Below, in pieces: positions 20,304 to 57,337 of a stretch of 64,000 bases of DNA. Origin of the DNA: a virus; IMG/VR virus record IMGVR_UViG_3300042477_000480, positions 62,001-126,000 of that record. The stretch is one strand, 5' to 3'. The position numbers were made by a program, and so were the translations under genes. Numbering within the stretch: the first letter of the stretch is position 1; every line of letters starts with the position of its first letter. The notes beneath the pieces were generated by a model. It saw only the letters and a list, made by a program, of their open reading frames with translations. It had not been told where the DNA came from and did not search any database.

Positions 20304-21230
20304 TCACTTGAAGTCGACGCGGGCGAGACCGTTCGTATGGCCGAACGAGCCGCCGGACGTCTGATACGCAAAGTACTCAAGCATGTAAGCCTCACGACGG
20401 ATGTACATCGTGGTGGGCTCCAGCTCGTAGTTCTTACCGATGAACTTCGGGCTGGCGAACATGAAGAGCGAATCGTCGGGGATCAGGTTGCGCTTGATCG
20501 TGACGATCCAACGGCAGTTGAGGAAGTTAGTTTCCGCCCAGCCGTTCTTGATGATGTCTTGCGAGAAGTCACCACCCATTTCGTCGCGACCAAACTTGAG
20601 GAGTTCCTTGATCGTGATGTTATTCACGAGGCAGGTTTCAACCTCAAAGTGACTCGGTGTCCGCGGCATGACCTTCAGCGCGTCGACGAGCGTCTCACGG
20701 GTGATGCCACCCGAGATCTCTTCGTACTGCACCGTGTCCGACAGGGTCACTATCTGGCCGGGAGCCGTAAGAACCGCATTGAACGCCGCGATAAACTTCG
20801 AGTCCTCTTCGGCAAGCATGTCCTTGATCATGTTGTCGCTGAGAACCTGACGGATGTCGATCACGTACGTACGCAGCTCGTCGACGTCCTTCACAGCGCG
20901 GGGCGACACGATCCGGTCAAACATGACGCGGTAGCGCGGGCCACGGATGTAGAAGTTAATCGGGAGCGTCGCGAACGGAAGCGACACAGCCGCCGGGGAA
21001 TCGGGTTCTTTGTCCACAACCTTAACGGGCTTGTCAGTATCAACCTGACGGTCAAGCTCGTCGTTGGTGATGGTCAGCGGCGGCATGATCCGCCGGTAGA
21101 ACCCGTCTTCACGCATCTTGGTGCGCGTGAAGTCGTTAACCGCATCGATGGCCTGCTTCTGCATGCCGGGGGTATCAAGCTGCTCAAAAAGCGTCTCGTT
21201 AAGCAGCTGGATTTCTTGCTGAGTGGGCAT
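20304..21230 (-). CDS. Major capsid protein
   Basis: A 308-residue protein. I choose the ATG at 21230 because a perfect GGAGG lies 8 bases upstream; an ATG at 21245 would place that GGAGG inside the coding region. Features fit an HK97-fold shell protein: an N-terminal helical arm, IMPPLTITNDELDRQV, an E-loop-like beta stretch, a long spine-helix candidate (YVIDIRQVLSDNMIKDML) and a beta-rich C-terminus ending RVDFK. It lies downstream of protease and scaffold candidates and is surrounded by small decoration-like genes, the typical order. Confident on role, less on fold. Confidence 0.75.
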   Translation of the reverse strand: MPTQQEIQLLNETLFEQLDTPGMQKQAIDAVNDFTRTKMREDGFYRRIMPPLTITNDELDRQVDTDKPVKVVDKEPDSPAAVSLPFATLPINFYIRGPRYRVMFDRIVSPRAVKDVDELRTYVIDIRQVLSDNMIKDMLAEEDSKFIAAFNAVLTAPGQIVTLSDTVQYEEISGGITRETLVDALKVMPRTPSHFEVETCLVNNITIKELLKFGRDEMGGDFSQDIIKNGWAETNFLNCRWIVTIKRNLIPDDSLFMFASPKFIGKNYELEPTTMYIRREAYMLEYFAYQTSGGSFGHTNGLARVDFK

Positions 21231-21270
21231 TTTGGGAACCTCCATGTTCCTGAATTAGTTAGGGATTAGA

Positions 21271-23750: not shown

Positions 23751-25202
23751 TCATGTGACATAATTTTGCAATACACAGTGGTTTGCTGTCAACCAATGAT
23801 TCCCGTGTTTTTCACAAATGGCAGCATAAGCAGCAATCTTATACAGCGCGTAGTGTTGTGCAAGAGCTGTTTCAGCTGCTCCACTGGCTTGTTTATACGA
23901 CGGAAACTCATCAGACTGAACACCGCGAAGAACCGCTAAATAAGCACGTTTCTCTACGTTGGTCAGTAATACGCTATGGGTGTGTGCTAGTTTTTCTGCC
24001 CATACACGTGCACTTGGCGACGCAGCAGGAGCAGGATAGTAGGCGTTGTTTTCTAGTAGCTTAACGACATCCGCGTCGTTGGCTAACTTCGAAAATATGT
24101 TAGGCAGCGCATTAACCACTGCACTAACAAGTCTCGCATCGGCGGTCTTTACTGTCAACGCTAAAAAGTCCCGCACAGGCAGAACTACTCCGGCGTCGGC
24201 AAGGCCGCGCAACACTTCGGATATTTTAACAGAATAGCAGGCATTTACATCAATAGGTGTTTGCACAGCCGGCGATGACGCCAGCGCCACCTGCGCCCAG
24301 CTATGCCCGGCAGTCGCTGTTTTCTCAGCCGCCGCCAGTTGTGTTAACGCCTCTAACTGCTGCTGTACCCGCGGTAAAAGCGGCTCGCCGCTGAAGTTAA
24401 TAGGCGCGGTTACACCCAGCTGCTCGGCGAGTTCGGACCCGGATAGACAACCTGCTGCGGCAGCCTTGAGCTGCCCAGAGACATAAGCGATCCTGTCAGC
24501 CGGCCGGAAAACGTGAGAAATATCAAAAAACGTGGGGTTTGGGTTGTCGGCGTGCAGGACGTGCCCGTCTTCAAGCACGCGCCCCATGTTGTGCCGCAAG
24601 CCGCCGGCTTTACAGTGGCCGCCGCGCTCAACAGAGTCGCAGTACTCTGCGCGCGTCTTGGCTTTGTTTCCGCACGACGAGCACTTATCGAATGGAATCT
24701 TGCAGGCCATGGACACAGCGATGTCGTCGCCCTTAGCCAGCTTTTCTAGTTCCTTGTCGGCAATAAGTCCGCCGTTTCGATCCGCCGCTTCTTTACTTCC
24801 GTTTAGAGCGACGACTAACTCAATTCGCTTCATCGGCTCGTGGTACGCCGACGCTTTTACTAAGCCGAAAGACTTCGCCGGGTTCTTATTGGCGTGGTCG
24901 CGATAAAACCGCGCAAACTTCTCAAACGTTTGGTGGTAGTTACGGCAACAATCGCGCGTAAATCCGTCACCGTTTCGGTTCGGTCCGTAGTCCTCAGTAG
25001 CGCCGATGGCGATCATATGCACCGGCACTTCGTCTTTGGCAAACTTGATGTTCTCAAGTTTATGCGCAAATTCAGCGCCGGCGCGCTTAACAAGCTCTTG
25101 GCGATCAGTGCCGATAATGCCGCGGCTTGATACTTTTATCAAAGCGGCTACGGGCTCGCTAAAATCCTGCGCATGCGGTTGAATGACTTTAATCATGCTC
25201 AT
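23751..25202 (-). CDS. Prohead maturation protease candidate with zinc insert
   Basis: A 483-residue protein. The N-terminal 170 residues fit the prohead protease pattern: strands leading to YGPNRNGDGF, a His in YRDHANKNP (His103), VKASAYHEPMKRIELVVAL, and a Ser in IAVSMACKIP (Ser164) at the place of the GLSIGF serine of HK97-type proteases. A four-cysteine insertion (Cys174, 177, 188, 197) follows directly, probably a zinc knuckle. The rest is helical and may be a core/scaffold part. It lies upstream of the scaffold-like and capsid genes. The catalytic assignment is by pattern only. Confidence 0.65.
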   Translation of the reverse strand: MSMIKVIQPHAQDFSEPVAALIKVSSRGIIGTDRQELVKRAGAEFAHKLENIKFAKDEVPVHMIAIGATEDYGPNRNGDGFTRDCCRNYHQTFEKFARFYRDHANKNPAKSFGLVKASAYHEPMKRIELVVALNGSKEAADRNGGLIADKELEKLAKGDDIAVSMACKIPFDKCSSCGNKAKTRAEYCDSVERGGHCKAGGLRHNMGRVLEDGHVLHADNPNPTFFDISHVFRPADRIAYVSGQLKAAAAGCLSGSELAEQLGVTAPINFSGEPLLPRVQQQLEALTQLAAAEKTATAGHSWAQVALASSPAVQTPIDVNACYSVKISEVLRGLADAGVVLPVRDFLALTVKTADARLVSAVVNALPNIFSKLANDADVVKLLENNAYYPAPAASPSARVWAEKLAHTHSVLLTNVEKRAYLAVLRGVQSDEFPSYKQASGAAETALAQHYALYKIAAYAAICEKHGNHWLTANHCVLQNYVT

Positions 25203-31357: not shown

Positions 31358-33238
31358 TCAGGGCTTCCACCCGCTAGTTGTACCCGTCACGCCAAACTGC
31401 TCGCCTTGGGCTAAAGACGGCACATAACTGCTGCCGGCTGTATCGCTACTTAACCCCCGGTGAACGCTATTCATAAGCCCCTTTTCCTGATATGAGCCCA
31501 GCATTCGGGTCATCCAGTCAGGGTCGTTCGAAATGTTTGCCATGCCGCGCACCATTTCGGGTTGGAACGGCGGCGGCTCTTTGTGGGCTTGTATGTTTTT
31601 AATTCCGTACTTATTCAGGTTGTTCAATACCCCGCGCCCGATTTTTGTGCCGATCGAGTAGTGCAGCACCGGTTTTTCGAGGTAATGGCCTGTTAGCGTT
31701 TGCGGGGCGCCAGCCACACTACCTTCACGCGGCGTCCAGTTTCTCTCCAACATCGCGTACGGCACAATGTCGTCCGGCGCATAATTCCCGTACTCGTCTG
31801 TGAGGCGCACGTGATTTACAAGTCCGCGGGATAGCAGCTCAATATTGCGGCGATGCGCTCCGATGCCGCTATTACCCATAACTTGGCGCATAGCTTGCAC
31901 AAAATAGCGCCGCCCTTCGCCGATACCCTTGTGCTTTACGATTTCCGACGGATTCGGCATTCCGTCAGATAGAACGTCGCCAGCCTCCAGATCATCACCC
32001 TTTTTGATCGCCAACGATCTTTCCGTCGGCACATAATGATCTTGGCCGTTAATTTGCACGTAGTATCCGCCCTGCGGAGCCGGCCTGATTTCTTGCACGC
32101 GGCCATCAGTTTGGGCGTGTGCGGCGCCGTCCGGGTATTTCTTCGGGACCTGTACAAGGGCGTTGAGCGCTTTAAAACCCGAGATTGCGCCAGCGCCTCC
32201 GACGCCGCCAGAGTGTTTCGAGCTAATCTGGCTCTGTGTGACAGGTTCAGACAGCGCTTGGGCCGCAGCGATACCCACATAATCTCCAGCCGGCGGTAAA
32301 CGGCCTTTTTCTCTAAAACCGACATCGCGCGCGTATACGCCGCCATCAGCCGGGCCTCCTACGATTGGGCTACGCACAAGAATATCTTTTGTGCCCATCT
32401 CTTTGATGTCGCGCAGGATCTTGGGCGTTAATACGGTGTTGCGCTTGTACGGCCCGACAGGACGCGCAAGTAACGCGCCTTCGTTGTCCGGGTCGTCAAC
32501 ATCGGTCGGATAACCACGCTCTAGCGCATCAGCTTTTCGGTCTTCATCATCGTCGTCATCGTCGTCGGCCGTGACCAGCAAACGATGCGTCATCTGCGCG
32601 AGCTGTTTACCGTAGAAACCAGCGTCCGCAGTCGCCGTCTTAAGATCGATAACACCTTTGCGCGTGCCGAAAGCGCCGGCAAAATACTCGACAGGTCGTA
32701 GCCCCTGCCCGTAGCCGCGAAGAACGGGAATTGGAATTGGATCGCCGCGGTGATCCAGATACTGCATGTCTGCGCCGATCAGCGAATTCAATTGATATTT
32801 ATTGCCAACGCCAGAGCCAGTGATTTGATGCACAAGCGGATTGTCTTGCGACTCGGCTTCTTTGTACACCTTGTCGAGTAGTTCCGACTGCGTGTTAGCG
32901 GCTAATTCCAGCAGTTTTACTTGCTTTTCTTTGTCGCCCAATTTCTTGTTCGACAAGATTTCTTGCATTGCGTGCTGCGTGCGGATCTGCGCCGCTTTAA
33001 CGGCCAATGTCGGCCGAATGTGCTTCAGGCTAAACGACAGCCCTGCGCTAGAATATCCCGCGTCCTTGCCGACGTCGTGCAGCCGCTTCATTACATCCCG
33101 GTACTTGTCGGGATGCTTTTGTGCTAGCTCAGTGGCTAGCGCGCCCATGCTTTTCTTGGTTAATACCCGATCGTAATCCCGCATTTCTGGCGGGAGCGCG
33201 TCGTTAATCAGGATTTGACCAAGCGTTGTTTTAAGCAT
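31358..33238 (-). CDS. RNA polymerase beta-prime C-terminal subunit
   Basis: A 626-residue protein starting at ATG 33238. MLKTTLGQILINDALPPEM matches the TT-x-GR-x-LFN-x-x-LP segment that follows the active site in beta-prime. RPVEYFAGAFGTRKGVIDLK (181-200) and TATADAGFYG match the bridge-helix region. VGIAAAQALSEPVTQSQISS (321-340) matches the trigger-loop helix. The region that carries the second zinc site in cellular beta-prime is replaced by an Asp-rich loop (about 224-233) and GVYARDVGFREKGRL, with no cysteines in the whole protein. It completes the beta-prime begun in the gene at 34220-38647. The split point resembles the rpoC1/rpoC2 division of cyanobacteria. Confidence 0.92.
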   Translation of the reverse strand: MLKTTLGQILINDALPPEMRDYDRVLTKKSMGALATELAQKHPDKYRDVMKRLHDVGKDAGYSSAGLSFSLKHIRPTLAVKAAQIRTQHAMQEILSNKKLGDKEKQVKLLELAANTQSELLDKVYKEAESQDNPLVHQITGSGVGNKYQLNSLIGADMQYLDHRGDPIPIPVLRGYGQGLRPVEYFAGAFGTRKGVIDLKTATADAGFYGKQLAQMTHRLLVTADDDDDDDEDRKADALERGYPTDVDDPDNEGALLARPVGPYKRNTVLTPKILRDIKEMGTKDILVRSPIVGGPADGGVYARDVGFREKGRLPPAGDYVGIAAAQALSEPVTQSQISSKHSGGVGGAGAISGFKALNALVQVPKKYPDGAAHAQTDGRVQEIRPAPQGGYYVQINGQDHYVPTERSLAIKKGDDLEAGDVLSDGMPNPSEIVKHKGIGEGRRYFVQAMRQVMGNSGIGAHRRNIELLSRGLVNHVRLTDEYGNYAPDDIVPYAMLERNWTPREGSVAGAPQTLTGHYLEKPVLHYSIGTKIGRGVLNNLNKYGIKNIQAHKEPPPFQPEMVRGMANISNDPDWMTRMLGSYQEKGLMNSVHRGLSSDTAGSSYVPSLAQGEQFGVTGTTSGWKP

Positions 33239-33239
33239 G

Positions 33240-33479
33240 TTACTTTGGCCAGATAATTTGCTGCATTGGCTTTGGCTTGAAATCAGATACGACAACCGTT
33301 TTTTCGATGCCAAGCGCCCGCAACATCGAATGGAAATCTGGCTCACCCGGCGTGGAATACACGATCGCTTCGTCTACTTGAATAGCGACGAAGATCGGAT
33401 TGCCCAGATCGTCTTCAACTACAACACTGTGCGCTTTCTGCTCAGTAGGTTGTAATTTGTGCTGCGTTTTAACGAGCAT
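33240..33479 (-). CDS. Small protein between the RNAP genes
   Basis: A 79-residue, beta-rich protein (SVVVEDDLGNPIFVAIQVDE) with a C-terminal basic strand (VVVSDFKPKPMQQIIWPK). Its stop lies one base before the start of the beta-prime C-terminal gene, and its start overlaps the previous gene by 11 bases. No family was recognised. Tight linkage makes an RNAP-associated role possible. Confidence 0.55.
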   Translation of the reverse strand: MLVKTQHKLQPTEQKAHSVVVEDDLGNPIFVAIQVDEAIVYSTPGEPDFHSMLRALGIEKTVVVSDFKPKPMQQIIWPK

Positions 33480-43399: not shown

Positions 43400-44221
43400 T
43401 CAAGTTTGCGGCACCAGTACATACGGCCGACCGTTAATCACAATAGTGCCGTTAATTTGCAGTCCAGCATCTTTTGTAATCGGATAAACCGCGGTGCGCT
43501 TTCCGTAAAGTTTTATGATTTCGGCGATATCGCCTTCTTGCGGTTTTGTTACGTTCGGATCGTAGTAGGGCGCCATCAGGTTACCCGCGTTTAAATGCGG
43601 TAGCCCCAACGCGTGCCCCAGCTCGTGACAAATAACAGCAACAGCCATGTTGAACGACCAGTCTTCCGCTTCGTCGAACATCTGATCAAGCTGGACGTTT
43701 TCGGCTACACCGCACGGCAACTCGCTCCACGCCAGTGTGCCGCCCTTGTTATCTAAACCGTTTTTCTTTCCGACACCGGAGCGCGCATAAATGTTCGCCT
43801 TGGTGTGCGTATCGACGCGCTGCGGCTCCAGCGCACACACCTCTGCCCACTGCGAAAACGCAATGTCGTAGGCTTCGGCCACCTGCTGTTCTGTCAGCCC
43901 CGGCAAATGGATTTTGTGATAGTACGTCACATTCGGCATCGGCCACTTGCACGGATCGCCGCCCGGAGCGGTGATATTGAAGTCCGGCAGACCGCAGCGC
44001 CGCTTGTTGATGCGATGCGCTGTCTTGGGGCCCACAGTACCTGTGGGGTTTAAGCCGTTAAACGACTGGAAGGCGCGGATCGCTTTTTGCAACTCCGCGC
44101 CTTTAATCTTCTTGACCTGCGCCAGCGTTTTATCGCCGAAATACCCCAGCGCATGCAGCCGCGTGAGAATCTCGCTGATCGGTAAAACGTGGGTTTCGTG
44201 AGCGGTTGGCTTCCGTGCCAT
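43400..44221 (-). CDS. Matrixin-like zinc metalloprotease with PG-binding domain
   Basis: A 273-residue protein. Residues 14-72 form a peptidoglycan-binding type 1 domain (LHALGYFG ... LQKAIRAFQSFNGLNPTGTV). Then comes RRCGLPDF (74-81), matching the cysteine switch PRCGVPD of matrix metalloproteinases. The catalytic domain has AFSQWAEVCALEPQRV, the calcium-type loop MFDEAEDWSF (181-190), the zinc motif CHELGHALGLPHL (His199, Glu200, His203, His209) and the Met-turn NLMAPYY (Met216). Domain order is exactly that of MMP proenzymes. There is no signal peptide, so release would need lysis or a virion. It may cut cell-surface proteins. Confidence 0.88.
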   Translation of the reverse strand: MARKPTAHETHVLPISEILTRLHALGYFGDKTLAQVKKIKGAELQKAIRAFQSFNGLNPTGTVGPKTAHRINKRRCGLPDFNITAPGGDPCKWPMPNVTYYHKIHLPGLTEQQVAEAYDIAFSQWAEVCALEPQRVDTHTKANIYARSGVGKKNGLDNKGGTLAWSELPCGVAENVQLDQMFDEAEDWSFNMAVAVICHELGHALGLPHLNAGNLMAPYYDPNVTKPQEGDIAEIIKLYGKRTAVYPITKDAGLQINGTIVINGRPYVLVPQT

Positions 44222-45087: not shown

Positions 45088-46122
45088 TTATCGCCCAAAC
45101 AGACTGGGTACGACGGCGTGCATCATACCGCCCCATAACCCCAGATCTTGTAACTTTGCTTGCCCAGCTGGTGTTAATCCGGCCATGGCTGACAGCGCTT
45201 TACCCGCCAGCGTCGCCGTGGCAAGCCCGACGCCCGCCGAGGCAATACCGTGAATAACGTCAATGGGCCGGATAATCGGGGATTGCATACTAGTGCTGAT
45301 GCCACTCATTAAACCGGTCGTGGCCGCGGCGTAAGCTGGCGGCGTGTAATTGCTGAAGTTACCCGCCCGCATGCCGCGATTTACGTCTTGCCACGCGGCC
45401 TGATTAAACTGCGGCACGCTTACAATGGGGCTGTAGAGCGCTGGCGGCTGCCCCGGAAACATGCTGCTTTTTTCGCGCTCTTGCATCTTTTTTTCATACG
45501 GGTACACAACCGCCGTATTGTTATTTGTGATCAGGCCACGCGGAAAGCTTGTACGCAGCGCGCGGGCATTGGCATAGCCGCCAAGCCCCGCCACGGCAGC
45601 GCCGCTCAGCGCGCCGAGTAAACCCAGCGTGCGGCGCAGTTTTCCGCGCTCGATATAGCGCTCTGGAAACAGCTGCTCCGCGAGCATACCGGCGCCGTAT
45701 CCAGTTCCGCCGGCAAGTAAGCCGGTCATAATGCCGTTCGACAGCGGCGATGGTCCCGCCAGCAGGGTGTTGCCCGTGTTCCACACCGCTGGCAAGCCGG
45801 GAACCAAGGAACCACGTTTGACGACGACCTGCTGCGCAAAATCGGGTGTTGCAGAAGACAACAAATGCGCCGCGCAGCTATATCCGCGTTCCGCCATAAC
45901 CGCGGCGTACTTTTCGCGGGCATCGGCGGCGATCTCAATCGGGCTGTATAGCGTAACGGCGTTTGTGGTGGGATTCCAAGCCGCTACGGTATGCGACAGC
46001 ACGTGCGTAGCTGCGCCTGCCTGCTCGTGCGCAACTTTGACCGCATGCGCACACGGCAACAGCTCTGCTACTCGCGCCGGCACACGCTGCCAGTCCTCGA
46101 CGGTGTAGATACTGGTTGTCAT
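45088..46122 (-). CDS. Gly-rich membrane protein
   Basis: A 344-residue protein; ATG 46122 sits one base after the previous gene. Residues 1-120 are soluble. Hydrophobic glycine-rich segments follow (IMTGLLAGGTGYGAGMLAEQ about 131-150, LGLLGALSGAAVAGLGGYAN about 167-186), then a Pro/Tyr-rich part and another Gly/Ala segment near 300. It belongs with the other glycine-zipper proteins of this genome, which are candidates for membrane penetration. Confidence 0.5.
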   Translation of the reverse strand: MTTSIYTVEDWQRVPARVAELLPCAHAVKVAHEQAGAATHVLSHTVAAWNPTTNAVTLYSPIEIAADAREKYAAVMAERGYSCAAHLLSSATPDFAQQVVVKRGSLVPGLPAVWNTGNTLLAGPSPLSNGIMTGLLAGGTGYGAGMLAEQLFPERYIERGKLRRTLGLLGALSGAAVAGLGGYANARALRTSFPRGLITNNNTAVVYPYEKKMQEREKSSMFPGQPPALYSPIVSVPQFNQAAWQDVNRGMRAGNFSNYTPPAYAAATTGLMSGISTSMQSPIIRPIDVIHGIASAGVGLATATLAGKALSAMAGLTPAGQAKLQDLGLWGGMMHAVVPSLFGR

Positions 46123-46123
46123 A

Positions 46124-46387
46124 TTAGTGCGCAACTGAAAAAACGAAGCGAAGTGCCAGCGAAATCCACGCAAGAAGTCCGCTGATAGCTAAAAAAACAA
46201 TAATCGCAGTCAGCAGCGCCACGCTACCCAGTTTTTCGAACGGAATTTTTTTAAACAGGTTCCACGCGCGCAGGTAATCAATCGCGTTTGGGGGTTTAGG
46301 CGGCGGTGCGGGCGCAGGTACAGGCTCGGGTTTTTTGGTATCGATCCCTAGAGCTTTTTTGATCATGTCGAGCAGCGGTGTGGCCAT
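46124..46387 (-). CDS. Small proline-rich membrane protein
   Basis: An 87-residue protein: an N-terminal helix (LLDMIKKALGI), a proline stretch (PEPVPAPAPPPKPPN), then a C-terminal membrane segment (SVALLTAIIVFLAISGLLAW). The start overlaps the upstream stop (TAATG). The layout resembles spanin-like proteins turned around, but that is not secure. Confidence 0.5.
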   Translation of the reverse strand: MATPLLDMIKKALGIDTKKPEPVPAPAPPPKPPNAIDYLRAWNLFKKIPFEKLGSVALLTAIIVFLAISGLLAWISLALRFVFSVAH

Positions 46388-47694
46388 TATTTCTTCCCCC
46401 AACGAGAGATAGTGTCAAAAATATCATTGCCGTAAAGCTGCACAATCTTGTCCGTGGGGTTCATTTGCGGCAGCGTGCCGTTAATCGCCATCTGCGCCAC
46501 TTGATAACGATAGTTTGGGTCAAGCTGCGACCGGTACAAGTGTGATTTATGCCGCGCCGCCATAATAAAGTCGCCGCGCTGTTTGGCCTTGAGCAAATGA
46601 TCGGTCACGTTTTGAAAAACGGGCTTACTGTGGTCGTAGATAAGCGGCTCGCGGAAGTTCAATAGGTTGCGAAACTGTTGCCCGTACACGCTAGCGCCAG
46701 CTTTCTCTATTTTTTGGACTTTTTTGTAGTAGTCGGGGTCTTCGGACAAGTGATCCTTGGCAATTTCTTTGGCAACTTGACCATTGTCTGTGTGTTCGCG
46801 CTCATGTTTAGCTCCTTCAGCTAAAGCAGGTTCAGAAAAATCCCGATCGGGTAAATTATCGGCTTCACCGCCCGGTAACAGGTCTTTTTGTCCCGAACGG
46901 GAAAGTGCGTTTGGCTGCTGTTTTTCTGCGGCAGATACCTTCTCGGCGGCGCAGCGGCCGGATTTTTTACACACGCACGTTTCAGGGCACATGCACGGAC
47001 CGGAGCAGCCACAGTCGTACGTGGTCTTATCATCCGCGGCGGCTTTGAGTTCTCCCCTGCTGATGGGGTTACTAAACCTATGCTCGTCGGCGCTTTCGGC
47101 CGAGGTTTCGGAACCCTTGGCCGTGCCGTTGTCGCGTAAAACGCCTTTGCGCCGGACAGCGAATGTGATGTGAAACGGTTGATCGTCCTTGGGCAGCGCC
47201 GAAAGGCCGTAACTCTTGCGCAAGGCAGACAGCGCCGGACTGAGCACATGTAGCGCCCATACTTTGCTGACGCCGCGCACGTTTTTGACGTCAATTTCTT
47301 TTAGGCCGCCCAGCGTATAGCCGAACATGTGACCGCGTTCGTTAATCTTGTCGCCGCCGATTGCTTCTACTTCAGCCGCCGTCATCACCGAGATGTGCGC
47401 ATTGACCAACTCGCCATCGACGTTTGGTACATTCATCACGCCGGCAGTCGGCAGCTCAGTGCCGGGCTCGGTAAGGGCGTCAAATACACCGCGGACGAGC
47501 GCGTTGGGCACCGCCAGCAGCAACCAGCCGCTTTTTGCGAGATATAGCCGACCCGAAAGCGGGTAGCTCGTGGCGGCGTTCTTGTCGCCGCTCATATACA
47601 GCCAGCCTAGCGCGTTGCCAGCAGCGTAGGCGGGGTGCTCGCGGAAGTATTCCGAGTCCCACGCGAGCGGATCTAAAGCGGATAGCGTATCCAT
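46387..47694 (-). CDS. 2H phosphoesterase-like protein with Cys-rich and DUF5661-like parts
   Basis: A 435-residue protein. The first 190 residues carry two H-x-T/S motifs: VNAHISVMT (His100, Ser102) and FHITFAVRRKGVL (His175, Thr177), spaced as in 2H phosphoesterases (LigT, AKAP18, Acb1). A dense cysteine cluster follows (about 225-246; CGCSGPCMCPETCVCKKSG). A helical motif of DUF5661 type comes next (VAKEIAKDHLSEDPDYYKKV), and then a helical C-terminus. Viral 2H enzymes degrade cyclic or 2'-5' nucleotides. An anti-CBASS role is possible but untested. The tRNA gene lies 16 bases upstream. Confidence 0.6.
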   Translation of the reverse strand: MDTLSALDPLAWDSEYFREHPAYAAGNALGWLYMSGDKNAATSYPLSGRLYLAKSGWLLLAVPNALVRGVFDALTEPGTELPTAGVMNVPNVDGELVNAHISVMTAAEVEAIGGDKINERGHMFGYTLGGLKEIDVKNVRGVSKVWALHVLSPALSALRKSYGLSALPKDDQPFHITFAVRRKGVLRDNGTAKGSETSAESADEHRFSNPISRGELKAAADDKTTYDCGCSGPCMCPETCVCKKSGRCAAEKVSAAEKQQPNALSRSGQKDLLPGGEADNLPDRDFSEPALAEGAKHEREHTDNGQVAKEIAKDHLSEDPDYYKKVQKIEKAGASVYGQQFRNLLNFREPLIYDHSKPVFQNVTDHLLKAKQRGDFIMAARHKSHLYRSQLDPNYRYQVAQMAINGTLPQMNPTDKIVQLYGNDIFDTISRWGKK

Positions 47695-47710: not shown

Positions 47711-47786
47711 TGGCTGCCTGAGTAGGACTCGAACCTACGACCCGGCGGTTAACAGCCGCCTGCTCTACCAACTGAGCTATCAGGCA
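47711..47786 (-). tRNA. tRNA-Asn (GTT)
   Basis: A complete 76-base cloverleaf with encoded CCA. Acceptor TGCCTGA pairs with TCAGGCA, and discriminator G precedes CCA. The anticodon stem GGCGG/CCGCC encloses CTGTTAA with anticodon GTT at 47751-47753. The T arm is GTAGG-TTCGAGT-CCTAC. It is the only tRNA in the window, inserted between two phage genes on the same strand. Confidence 0.97.
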
Positions 47787-49170: not shown

Positions 49171-50187
49171 TCACAAAATCTTGGCCGCAATGAGACAACC
49201 GCGCGCGACCGCATGCAGCGGATCATTGGCGTGACGTACTTCTTTGACCGGCAGCGGAAAACCATGCTCGTCAAGTTTCTTTTGAAACATTTCAACGAAG
49301 CCTTTAGCGCGTGTCGTGCCGCCGGCCAATGTTATCAGAATCGGCTCTTTGAACTTGGGCAGAGCTTTGTGGCCCTGTAACGCGTGCGCAAGCATCTTCA
49401 CGGTGTAATCGATCAGACGCTCGTAGTACACGCTAACAGCAGACAAAATTGCGCTGTCACTCTGCTCGCCAATCACAAACGTGCCGTGCTCTTTCTCTGC
49501 CTGCACAACTGAATCCGGCTCATTTGTGGCAACGGCCGTCATGCGGTCAATCCAGTCGCCGGACTTCGTTGTCGAAAACAGCACGGTGGGTTCGCCGTTG
49601 AGCATGACACAGCAATTCACCATGCCCGCGCCCCACGACAAGCCAATGCCGGTGTAATCATCGTTTTCCAGCTCCGAGTAGCACAGCGCTTCGGCTTCGT
49701 TAATCGCCCGGGCCGTGTAACCCTGCTCCGCCAGCACCGTGCGCACAACGTCTTCGTGATACGCGACGTCAAAATCATCGTCTTCCTGATCGACGGGCTG
49801 GGCCGGCACGCAAAAGATCAGCTTTTCGTGCGGCTCGCTGGCGGTGCCGACAACTTCCTTGAGGATAAACGCCAGCACGCGCTTGGCTTCTTTTTCCTTG
49901 GGGCTAACCACGCCGCGATACATGGGGCGCTTGGCCGAGTCATTGCGCTCAACGGCCTTTTCGATGGCGTCTTGGCCGAGAATAATAAACGTGCCGTCGG
50001 CGTCGCGCACAAATACCTTACCCTGTAGACCTTTTTCGATCATCTTGGTGGCCACGGGGGTCGTCGGCTTGATGACGTAAAACGCATCGCGGAAATCTTT
50101 GTATTGAACGCTGGCCGCGACGGCAGAGTCCAGCGCGTCTTGCGCCAGCACGATAAACGATGTTCCGACGTCTAAACCCTTAGCCAT
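49171..50187 (-). CDS. Actin-like ATPase
   Basis: A 338-residue protein of the actin/Hsp70/ParM superfamily. Phosphate 1 is GLDVGTSFIVLAQ (4-16). Connect 1 is EQGYTARAINEAEALCYSEL, phosphate 2 is YTGIGLSWGAGMVNCCVMLN, and the adenosine motif is PILITLAGGTTRAKGFVEMF. Length fits bacterial MreB/ParM. In phages such proteins form filaments for genome or particle positioning. A Lys-rich 38-residue protein is encoded just upstream, with the same AAAGGTAAGT ribosome site. The filament role is inferred. Confidence 0.8.
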   Translation of the reverse strand: MAKGLDVGTSFIVLAQDALDSAVAASVQYKDFRDAFYVIKPTTPVATKMIEKGLQGKVFVRDADGTFIILGQDAIEKAVERNDSAKRPMYRGVVSPKEKEAKRVLAFILKEVVGTASEPHEKLIFCVPAQPVDQEDDDFDVAYHEDVVRTVLAEQGYTARAINEAEALCYSELENDDYTGIGLSWGAGMVNCCVMLNGEPTVLFSTTKSGDWIDRMTAVATNEPDSVVQAEKEHGTFVIGEQSDSAILSAVSVYYERLIDYTVKMLAHALQGHKALPKFKEPILITLAGGTTRAKGFVEMFQKKLDEHGFPLPVKEVRHANDPLHAVARGCLIAAKIL

Positions 50188-55123: not shown

Positions 55124-57337
55124 TCAATTCCCCCACTTAATCGGAGACTGAAGTTGGGGCATACCCTTCGGCATCATGCCGCCCAGCTGCGACGCGCCGT
55201 AGATACCAGCTGCCGCCGTCGGAACTGCGGTGTACGGGCTCTTGGCGGCCATGGAGAGCGCTTTGCCAGCCATGTTGACGCCACTGCCGAGTCCTTGCGC
55301 CACGGCACCTGCGCCGCCGACCATACCTTGCGCCAGCGGAGCCACGCCACGGGCAATGTTCATACCAGCTTGGCCAGCGCTTTGTAATCCGCGGGCAATG
55401 TTCTGCCCTGCGCTATAGGCACGCGAAGCGCCTTCCGACACGCCGCCAACAACGCGCTGACCCAACGACTGCGGAATATCTGCGCCGCCGCGACCAGCCA
55501 TGGCGGGGTTATACGGCGCGTTCCAACCCGGCGGATCAGGCAGCGGCGGACGACCAGCCGCACCAGCAGTCGCAGCGGGACGAGGCGCAGCAGCCGCGGC
55601 CGGGCGAGCAGCACCAGCGCCAGCCTGCGCACCACCAGCCGGAGCAGCAGCCGGAGCGACACGATACTGCCGCGTCATGCCCGGATACTGCACAGTGGCC
55701 ATACCGTCAGCAACGTTTTGCACCGTGCCCGAGCCGTAACGATTGTGCTGCAACGTCTTCCCAGCCTGAATGTTCGACGGCAGCACTGTGCGGCCCTGTG
55801 TCATCGGCGCCGCTTTCTGCGCCATCTGCGCCGCGTTATCAGCAGCGCCGGCGACGGCACCCGTAGCTTTCTGCGCAACGTTATCAGCGGCACCCGCGAC
55901 AGCACGACCAGCGCCTTGCGCGACACGACCGACAAGCTTGCCCAGAAACGCAGCTTTTTCGGCGCTGCTCTGTTGCGCGTTAGTCGCATCAGTCGGCACG
56001 GGGCAGCATGTTTCACGCTGCTTGTCGTCCACGAGGCGCTGACTTCCGCGGCTAGACGGCGTGTCGTTCATCGTGGTCTTGCCCTGTCCCGCCACACCAG
56101 CTTTCTTGACTTCTTTCTTTTTCTTCTTGCCCACAGGCCGGCACGAGTCGTTGCTGTAGGGCTTCTTGCCCGGAACCGGCTCATAGCCTTCCCAGCAGCG
56201 CGCCATCTTGTAGGCAAACGCCGCGCCAGCTTTTACAGCCGATGTGCTGTTCGCCTGTAGTTGTGGCATCAGTCGTTCGATCGCGTCTTGGTTGTTTGTT
56301 AGAAAGTCGTACATGCCGCGTGCCTGTTGTGAACTCATGTTAGGATCACGACCCATCAGCGCCGTAGTACCGAACTCCGGGCTCAGGCCGCGCAATGTAT
56401 TCATCTGCGAGCGAATATCGCCACCACCGCCACCGGCCAGCCCGTAGAGCGCATTCGCACCCTGACCAACCAGCCGACGCGGGCCATCGCCAAACATGCC
56501 GGCTCCAGCAGCACCTAAGCCAGCCGCGCCGAGACCAAGCGCGCCGAGCGTGCCGCCCAGTGCACCTTGACCGCGACCACCCATAAACGCGCCAGCAAGC
56601 GCCAGCGGAACACCAGCGCCAATTGCGTACCGAGCTTCAATCGGCAGGCTGTTCCACGCGCCCATCAGACCACCACCGCCAGCCGGTTGGCCGCTTTGGG
56701 TGTCCATGCTGTGCTGCATACCCGACGCCATCTGCGTCTGCTGATTAATACCAGCCGCCGAGGGTTCGTCGCCACTGCCGATAAGCCCAGTCGCCCGGGC
56801 TCCGCCGTACAGCGTACCGCCGCCAACGGCTAAGTTCAGCGGGTTGAGCTTGTCGCCGACGGGGCTTGTACCGAAGGCGCGGCCAGCTTCTGTTTGAATG
56901 GGGCGCACTACCTTGTCGCCGAGCTTGTTGCCGGCCGGCGCTGCTTTGCCCGGCCCGCTCATGGCCCATCGGCCGGCGTCATCGGCTGTGTTCAGTAGAT
57001 TACGCGCGGTGTTGGTCGTAAACTGCCCAACGCTACCTACACCCTCGCCGACCGATCGCGCGGCGCCTACTACGCGGTCTTTCGCGCCCTGCACAAACTT
57101 GTTGCCGCCGACGCGCGACGCCACATCGTCCATCACGCCTTTCGCCTGCGTCGCGTACGGCGTGGCTTTCTGCACGACGTTATCAACCATGGGCGCGGCT
57201 TTTTCGACAGCTTTCGTCGCGGCGCCACGGATCGCCGGGATGGCGCGCGTCGTGGCGTAATTAACAAACTTGCCCAGATACGCGTCTTTTTCCATTGCTT
57301 CGCGGGCAGCAGCGCCGAATGCTTGTACGTCGTTCAT
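55124..57337 (-). CDS. Large Gly/Ala-rich virion/membrane protein with CWEGYEPVPGKK motif
   Basis: A 737-residue protein. The N-terminal segment (FGAAAREAMEKDAYLGKFVN) fits the shared start motif of other Gly-rich proteins here. Gly/Ala-rich zipper regions occur near 230-290 and 660-730. A motif CWEGYEPVPGKKPYSNDSC, followed by a Lys run (PVGKKKKKEVKK), occurs near residue 390. I have seen similar CW-x-GY-x-x-VPG-x-K-x-Y-x-x-x-SC elements in viral proteins. Two VGAADN-type repeats (GAVAGAADN, RAVAGAADN) lie near 495-520. A membrane-penetrating or ejection role is possible. Confidence 0.5.
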   Translation of the reverse strand: MNDVQAFGAAAREAMEKDAYLGKFVNYATTRAIPAIRGAATKAVEKAAPMVDNVVQKATPYATQAKGVMDDVASRVGGNKFVQGAKDRVVGAARSVGEGVGSVGQFTTNTARNLLNTADDAGRWAMSGPGKAAPAGNKLGDKVVRPIQTEAGRAFGTSPVGDKLNPLNLAVGGGTLYGGARATGLIGSGDEPSAAGINQQTQMASGMQHSMDTQSGQPAGGGGLMGAWNSLPIEARYAIGAGVPLALAGAFMGGRGQGALGGTLGALGLGAAGLGAAGAGMFGDGPRRLVGQGANALYGLAGGGGGDIRSQMNTLRGLSPEFGTTALMGRDPNMSSQQARGMYDFLTNNQDAIERLMPQLQANSTSAVKAGAAFAYKMARCWEGYEPVPGKKPYSNDSCRPVGKKKKKEVKKAGVAGQGKTTMNDTPSSRGSQRLVDDKQRETCCPVPTDATNAQQSSAEKAAFLGKLVGRVAQGAGRAVAGAADNVAQKATGAVAGAADNAAQMAQKAAPMTQGRTVLPSNIQAGKTLQHNRYGSGTVQNVADGMATVQYPGMTRQYRVAPAAAPAGGAQAGAGAARPAAAAAPRPAATAGAAGRPPLPDPPGWNAPYNPAMAGRGGADIPQSLGQRVVGGVSEGASRAYSAGQNIARGLQSAGQAGMNIARGVAPLAQGMVGGAGAVAQGLGSGVNMAGKALSMAAKSPYTAVPTAAAGIYGASQLGGMMPKGMPQLQSPIKWGN

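Follow-up and report, generated by a model that had tools for sequence, protein, structure and literature searches.

Most virion proteins of jumbo phages have, to our knowledge, no known role. The T4 head protease recognizes the motif L/I-x-E, and the CxC-repeat metallothioneins (plant type 1 and fungal Cu-MT) have the spacing CxC-x3-CxC-x3-CxC with almost no other cysteines in the chain. Phage polyvalent proteins with a 2H domain have been proposed, in the available text of Iyer et al. 2017 (PMC5512222), to be delivered alongside the genome. In T4-like phages NUDIX domains are fused to head proteins (available portion of PMC9503650), and gp245 of SPN3US cuts after AXE and leaves N-terminal propeptides, a precedent for head proteins that are cut and ejected (accessible part of PMC10052503).

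We analyzed a 64,000-nucleotide window from a virus record of 203,206 bp (positions 62001-126000). A gene at 46387..47694 (minus strand, as are all its features given below) encodes a 435-aa protein with the order 2H - Cys module - DUF5661 - C-terminal domain, as judged from the ORF, Pfam matches and relatives. Several domains are present in the chain, including a conflict-type enzyme, and relatives have NUDIX and other domains, as expected of a polyvalent protein. Like the 2H polyvalent proteins in the text available for PMC5512222, it is a multidomain phage protein with a 2H domain and no RNA ligase partner, but its layout is compact (2H-slot-DUF5661-C-terminal), its modules are swappable and bounded by a motif, and there is no MuF or portal domain in the chain. 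With the T4-like head fusions, as far as the available portion of PMC9503650 describes them, the family shares the occurrence of NUDIX beside virion-associated domains, but it has NUDIX as one cassette among several next to 2H.

Genomic setting and 2H domain

The ORF at 46387-47694 is a real gene, with an ATG start and a ribosome-binding-like stretch (AAGGA) directly upstream. Because the window also encodes an RNA polymerase subunit of the Rpb1 type (31358-33346) and a phage homolog of Volactin-family actins (49171-50187; PF25216, E = 1.6e-63), the virus is most likely a jumbo phage. A tRNA gene had been noted beside the 2H gene in the initial annotation, and it is indeed there: a tRNA-Asn(GTT) at 47711..47786, on the same strand and detected by ARAGORN and Rfam (RF00005), ends 16 nt upstream. 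In 28 of 28 close loci both Volactin and tRNA-Asn are upstream of the 2H gene, the tRNA at distances from about 10 nt to 5.9 kb. On a single strand, and as far as their contigs reach, these loci keep the order Volactin - tRNA-Asn - 2H - Gly-rich protein - holin-like - lysin, and the downstream holin-like and matrixin/peptidoglycan-binding lysin genes are co-directional in every locus that has them. The lysin-like protein of the window (43400-44221) has a peptidoglycan-binding domain and a matrixin (M10) metallopeptidase domain, the latter unusual as the catalytic domain of a phage lysis gene. The 2H gene is part of a late lysis/virion region, a position that fits a protein made late and acting early in the next cell.

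The conserved late gene order and the constant presence of an upstream tRNA-Asn would also suit an enzyme that is never packaged, but is expressed with the lysis genes and trims or heals RNA ends, for example those of the adjacent tRNA, with the K-x-A stretches described below serving only as flexible linkers. We regard this as improbable: the tRNA is several kb away in some relatives, and both the linker motif and the fusion partners of DUF5661 argue against it (see below).

The two H-x-S/T motifs reported in the initial annotation, H100-I-S (motif 1, NAHIS; H100 at 47395..47397) and H175-I-T (motif 2, FHIT; H175 at 47170..47172), are 75 residues apart, and neither histidine varies across the 42 aligned 2H domains, which include two sequences at 53-54% identity. 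They lie in a 2H phosphoesterase (2H-SAK) domain at residues 46-186 (47137..47559). A profile search bears out the assignment, with residues 94-183 matching Pfam family 2H-SAK (PF22547; E = 1.8e-7) at 31.9 bits, over the curated cut-off of 27. The name of this family points to the Swiss Army Knife RNA repair proteins; our protein shares both of its catalytic motifs, without a ligase or kinase in the chain. Searches with the 435-aa protein gave no match in PHROGs or, by sequence, among solved structures, and three weak matches (E about 0.1) of the alignment to SHQ1 among solved structures were taken as chance. Relatives of the 2H domain were sought in isolated phages and plasmids, with none convincing, and the literature that we searched held no mention of 2H-SAK by name. 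On an alphaproteobacterial MAG contig (L307, 2689-3819 and 4887-6599) we observed a 2H-SAK relative and an integrase-like ORF, as judged by eye; the second motif of this relative is LHCT in place of FHIT.

AlphaFold2, using the 42-sequence alignment, modeled the 2H domain with a pLDDT of 84.1 and a pTM of 0.76, placing the His motifs on model strands 63-67 and 137-145. A full-length model of the 435-aa protein (17 close relatives) had a pLDDT of 48 and was set aside. Foldseek searches with the 2H model gave three matches with E ≤ 1e-3 in BFVD and none at this threshold in the PDB, where the best E-value was 0.085 and the top rows were Usb1 and Acb1. A second comparison with VIA-align, on the top chains from Foldseek, returned 39 entries with Z scores of 3.7-7.6, almost all of them named 2H enzymes or their relatives, plus three kinetoplastid mitoribosome chains. 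As modeled, the N-terminal domain has a 2H fold, in agreement with the initial annotation. The highest Z score was that of Acb1 (7t26; 7.6, rmsd 3.4 over 107 residues), followed by archaeal and bacterial LigT-like proteins and drCPDase (6.5), Usb1 (6.5), LigT (about 6) and CNPase (5.8). Since the scores of Acb1, LigT-like proteins, CPDase and Usb1 are nearly tied, the fold does not choose the substrate. AKAP18, a non-catalytic member of the 2H fold, is also among the VIA-align matches and invites the reading that the domain is structural and enzymatically inactive, binding nucleic acid inside the head. The retention of both motif histidines in all 42 domains, even in the two at 53-54% identity, makes this very hard to credit.

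A specific kinship to Acb1, which the initial annotation had named among enzymes with such motifs, is not supported. Acb1 (T4 57B, PF23474) has the 2H fold in common with our protein and comes first in structure, but it is only about 1 Z unit ahead of other 2H enzymes, and sequence comparison links the two in neither direction. Each of the 12 members of alignment A3 matches 2H-SAK only, even at E ≤ 10, and none of the 12 matches the Acb1 family model at that threshold; T4 57B, which is a single 152-aa protein, matches Acb1 with 202.7 bits and does not match 2H-SAK. A profile comparison between 2H-SAK and Acb1 with hhalign gave a probability of 1%. On these results we rejected a kinship to Acb1 by sequence.

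Modules exchanged between 2H and DUF5661

Searches for relatives found 68 loci with the full-length 435-aa query and 79 with a query consisting of the N-terminal alignment. The 79 loci yielded 55 distinct proteins; 47 of them are complete, with a length of at least 330 aa. Architectures were counted in 46 complete distinct relatives, with loci L184 and L307 left out, and 12 architectures are listed among them. Between 2H and DUF5661 lies a slot that is occupied by a Cys module in 16 relatives, by NUDIX in 11 and by a P-loop kinase-like domain in one (L139, AAA_18), and that otherwise contains other inserts or almost nothing. The inserts include a helical module in 2 of the 46 and, in 2 relatives, a module that matches acylphosphatase very weakly (L118, E = 0.07, below the cut-off). 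NUDIX slots contain one or two domains, with two in L159; the two kinds of NUDIX cross-match, so that a label with both need not mean two domains. DUF5661 is found in 45 of the 46 relatives, and a C-terminal helical domain (residues 335-432; 46399..46692), which matches no family in Pfam, in 46 of 46. Sequence comparison across the family indicates that the slot exchanges modules beside the 2H domain.

The more distant L184 protein has 2H together with a C-terminus resembling HAD phosphatases (weak HAD_PNKP match, E = 0.0095) and has no DUF5661 match. A gene downstream of 2H in L184 seemed to resemble window 45088-46173, but tblastn at 1e-4 did not bear this out.

The Cys module is metallothionein-like. 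The initial annotation had drawn attention to a dense cysteine cluster directly after the 2H domain, and all seven cysteines of the 435-aa protein do fall within the 20 residues 228-247 (46954..47013), with the spacing C-x-C-x3-C-x-C-x3-C-x-C-x4-C. Among 16 modules with distinct DNA sequences, five of the Cys columns are conserved in 16/16, one in 15/16 and the last in 13/16, and both TGT and TGC are used in all but one column. This conservation, with both codons in use, implies that the Cys pattern has been kept by selection and is not due to chance. The 30 of 46 relatives that lack the module have 0-2 cysteines in total, whereas those with it have 121 cysteines inside the module and 10 outside. 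The cluster is, on this pattern, a swappable module separate from the 2H enzyme. Plant and fungal metallothioneins have a similar CxC spacing and, likewise, cysteines nearly confined to the module, but here the module is internal to a larger protein. A module of this type would be expected to bind Cu(I) or Zn(II). The 435-aa protein had no match to the Pfam metallothionein families at E ≤ 1, and a literature search for phage metallothioneins turned up nothing that we judged relevant from the titles in the search listing. A scan for the Cys pattern in DNA found at least 120 stretches, of which the 80 listed were translated. Among these listed matches nearly all were low-complexity or in unlikely frames, the exceptions being L209, which is a member of the 2H family, and L262, where positions 2351-2410 of a virus contig possibly encode a short standalone metallothionein-like peptide (CxCx3CxCx3CxC).

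The contents of the slot bear on whether the protein is an anti-signaling effector, with a role like that of Acb1 played by a different 2H family. Its 2H domain would degrade the cyclic oligonucleotides of CBASS, type III CRISPR or related systems, or 2'-5' oligoadenylates, and NUDIX would remove ADP-ribose-type signals. In structure Acb1 comes closest (Z 7.6), NUDIX is present in 11 of the 46 relatives, and in the portion of PMC9503650 available NUDIX proteins are proposed as virion-packaged counters to ADPr signals; nucleotide degradation is likewise one role proposed for polyvalent-protein 2H domains in the accessible text of PMC5512222. However, sequence kinship to Acb1 is absent, its structural lead is nearly tied with LigT-like proteins, CPDase and Usb1, and partners of an RNA-processing type, the HAD phosphatase-like domain of L184 and the P-loop kinase-like domain of L139, suit RNA ends. 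We consider an anti-signaling role, the chief alternative to the reading favored below, rather unlikely.

K-x-A-[AS] motifs in linkers and head proteins

We first noticed the motif K-x-A-[AS] in the 2H family and afterwards tested it on head genes. In the 46 relatives, the motif is absent from the modules (0 observed in 16,892 aa, against 16.2 ± 3.4 expected) and occurs 107 times in the linkers (6,165 aa; 14.1 ± 3.8 expected). Because the relatives are not independent and we set the module borders after the motif had been seen, the evidence lies in the size of this effect and not in a P value. In the window protein there are candidate maturation-protease sites before the 2H domain (K38-N-A-A, 47572..47583), where K38 and A40 are invariant in 17/17 sequences, and in the linker before the Cys module (K217-A-A-A, 47035..47046). 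K-x-A is present at the N-terminal boundary of 2H in 34 of 45 members of the wider family and missing in 11, and K-x(0-1)-A-[AS] lies ahead of the Cys module in 15 of 16.

The head cluster of the window (16.0-31.4 kb, 13 minus-strand proteins) has 22 K-x-A-[AS] motifs, compared to 6.24 ± 2.42 expected, a number seen in 0 of 200 shuffles; the motif is not raised in the remaining four parts of the window. Of all three-residue patterns tested, the literal K.AA takes 5th place in the head cluster and 6391st place in the other proteins. KTA alone, which is also enriched in the head cluster, was rejected as less general than K-x-A-[AS]. Across 14 gene families of the relatives, using orthologs from 36 loci thinned to <85% identity, we counted 461 motifs versus 104 expected, with the excess concentrated in five genes (the protease, 21915, 22358, 26195 and 28899); the motif is not raised in RNA polymerase orthologs (3 vs 3.8 expected). 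The patterns E.A[AS] and D.A[AS] are mildly raised in head genes (191 vs 117, and 143 vs 103). The linker motif is specific, being K.A[AS] and not R.A[AS], and it recurs in head-assembly proteins but not in RNA polymerase, helicase or tail proteins, which argues against an unpackaged enzyme with merely flexible linkers.

A candidate for the protease that would cut these sites is encoded at 23751..25202 (minus strand). Its homologs in Gordonia phages Pupper and Stormageddon are annotated 'capsid maturation protease', that in the distant Salmonella phage Arash (gp222) is annotated 'structural protein', and most other matches are annotated as hypothetical. The major capsid protein (20304..21245, minus strand) is 29% identical to Arash gp226 (E = 1.3e-37). 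It has K30-Q-A near its N-terminus, K-Q-A is present in 24 of 24 orthologs, and the site aligns with K-E-A in Arash; the capsid proteins of the two phages have K-x-A-I and K-x-A-G, not K-x-A-[AS]. The head genes of Arash contain 23 K-x-A-[AS] motifs (4.3 ± 2.0 expected, 0/500), compared to 1 (1.9 expected) in six other Arash genes tested. We infer that K-x-A-[AS] is a recognition site of the maturation protease, Lys occupying P3 and Ala P1. The motif proposed here from sequence would differ from AXE (SPN3US) and L/I-x-E (T4). The arrangement resembles that of the cleaved head and ejection proteins of these phages, in which, according to the accessible part of PMC10052503, a protease motif of three residues comes after an N-terminal piece and is present in several head proteins. 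In Arash virions, the sequence coverage reported in the available text of PMC10585845 is 86.6% for the major capsid protein and reaches 100% in some proteins rich in K-x-A, gp223 among them, figures that do not demonstrate segment loss or cleavage. Should K-x-A-[AS] prove to be the site of maturation, it would provide a sequence rule for predicting the cut proteins of this phage group and the positions of their cuts. A 737-aa protein with four K-A-A stretches (window 55124-57337) is a candidate further virion protein.

DUF5661 and possible virion delivery

The DUF5661-like tail predicted in the initial annotation is confirmed by Pfam: residues 294-331 match PF18905 with E = 4.9e-9 and 36.8 bits (curated cut-off 27), within a domain that we place at residues 279-331 (46702..46860). 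Outside the 2H family DUF5661 matched 42 loci (the ORF extracted at L031 being without the domain), and we scanned 15 of the proteins. Nine of these have another Pfam family at E ≤ 1e-3 and six have none. The partners are portal (L034), portal with MuF (L033), DUF2213 (L071), ART-PolyVal (L050), GNAT (L040), mCpol (L030 and L046), InPase with RelA/SpoT (L052), and InPase with a 2'-5' RNA ligase-type 2H domain (2_5_RNA_ligase2; L070, Virus Rctr197k), so that in Virus Rctr197k DUF5661 is again beside a 2H domain, of another family than 2H-SAK. In the scanned proteins, therefore, DUF5661 is associated with head and polyvalent proteins; its fusion to portal, MuF and DUF2213 is a further point against a 2H enzyme that stays out of the particle. 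DUF5661 also forms small standalone ORFs of about 72-91 aa, which account for many of the remaining loci, and hence is not necessarily a tag for cargo. The literature searched did not mention DUF5661 by name.

Swappable modules bounded by K-x-A-[AS], a location in the late region, and the presence of DUF5661 on head and polyvalent proteins together suggest that the 435-aa protein is virion cargo. We give a probability of about 50% to the reading that it is cut in the head and that its 2H domain heals or trims 2',3'-cyclic RNA ends (or acts on cyclic nucleotides) at entry. A polyvalent-type effector made late would be taken into the prohead through DUF5661 and/or the terminal domains, the capsid maturation protease would cut it at K-x-A-[AS] into separate modules, and these would be ejected together with the DNA into the next cell. 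There the freed 2H domain would open 2',3'-cyclic phosphate (or related 3') RNA ends, most likely on tRNA or other RNA that host nucleases have broken at the onset of infection, ahead of phage gene expression. The slot would supply phage-specific helper modules, here the metallothionein-like module and elsewhere NUDIX or kinase-like domains. We found neither RNA_ligase (PF09414) nor RtcB (PF01139) in the phage record, which weakens the case for a complete repair pathway. RNA ligases were detected in purified Arash particles, according to the available text of PMC10585845, which also warns that enzymes in particles may be carry-over.

We put forward only tentatively the broader proposal of a capsid-processed cargo polyprotein with a cassette slot, from which the phage's own maturation protease would free RNA-end, nucleotide and metal-binding modules within the head, and in which DUF5661 would be a portable capsid-cargo domain in many unrelated phages, including on mCpol, ART and pyrophosphatase proteins. 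If it is true, phage particles would deliver a metal-sequestering peptide in the form of the metallothionein-like module, and the swapping of NUDIX, kinase-like and metal-binding modules at a single place would show how phages retool the enzymes that confront host defenses within the first minutes. If DUF5661 marks head cargo, it offers a means of detecting injected effectors in different phages.

The mCpol partners of DUF5661 form a separate observation. mCpol is the cyclic-nucleotide polymerase of the Panoptes defense. Two proteins on phage contigs (L046, 6993-9122; L030, 6747-9332) combine an N-terminal mCpol with DUF5661 according to Pfam, and a third (L064, 6963-9053) was assigned the same composition by likeness. 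An mCpol carried in the virion could feed a decoy signal to Panoptes. The L064 gene is four ORFs before a tail-sheath-like ORF, as judged by eye, and the GGDE motif kept in L046 and L030 is QGDE in L064.
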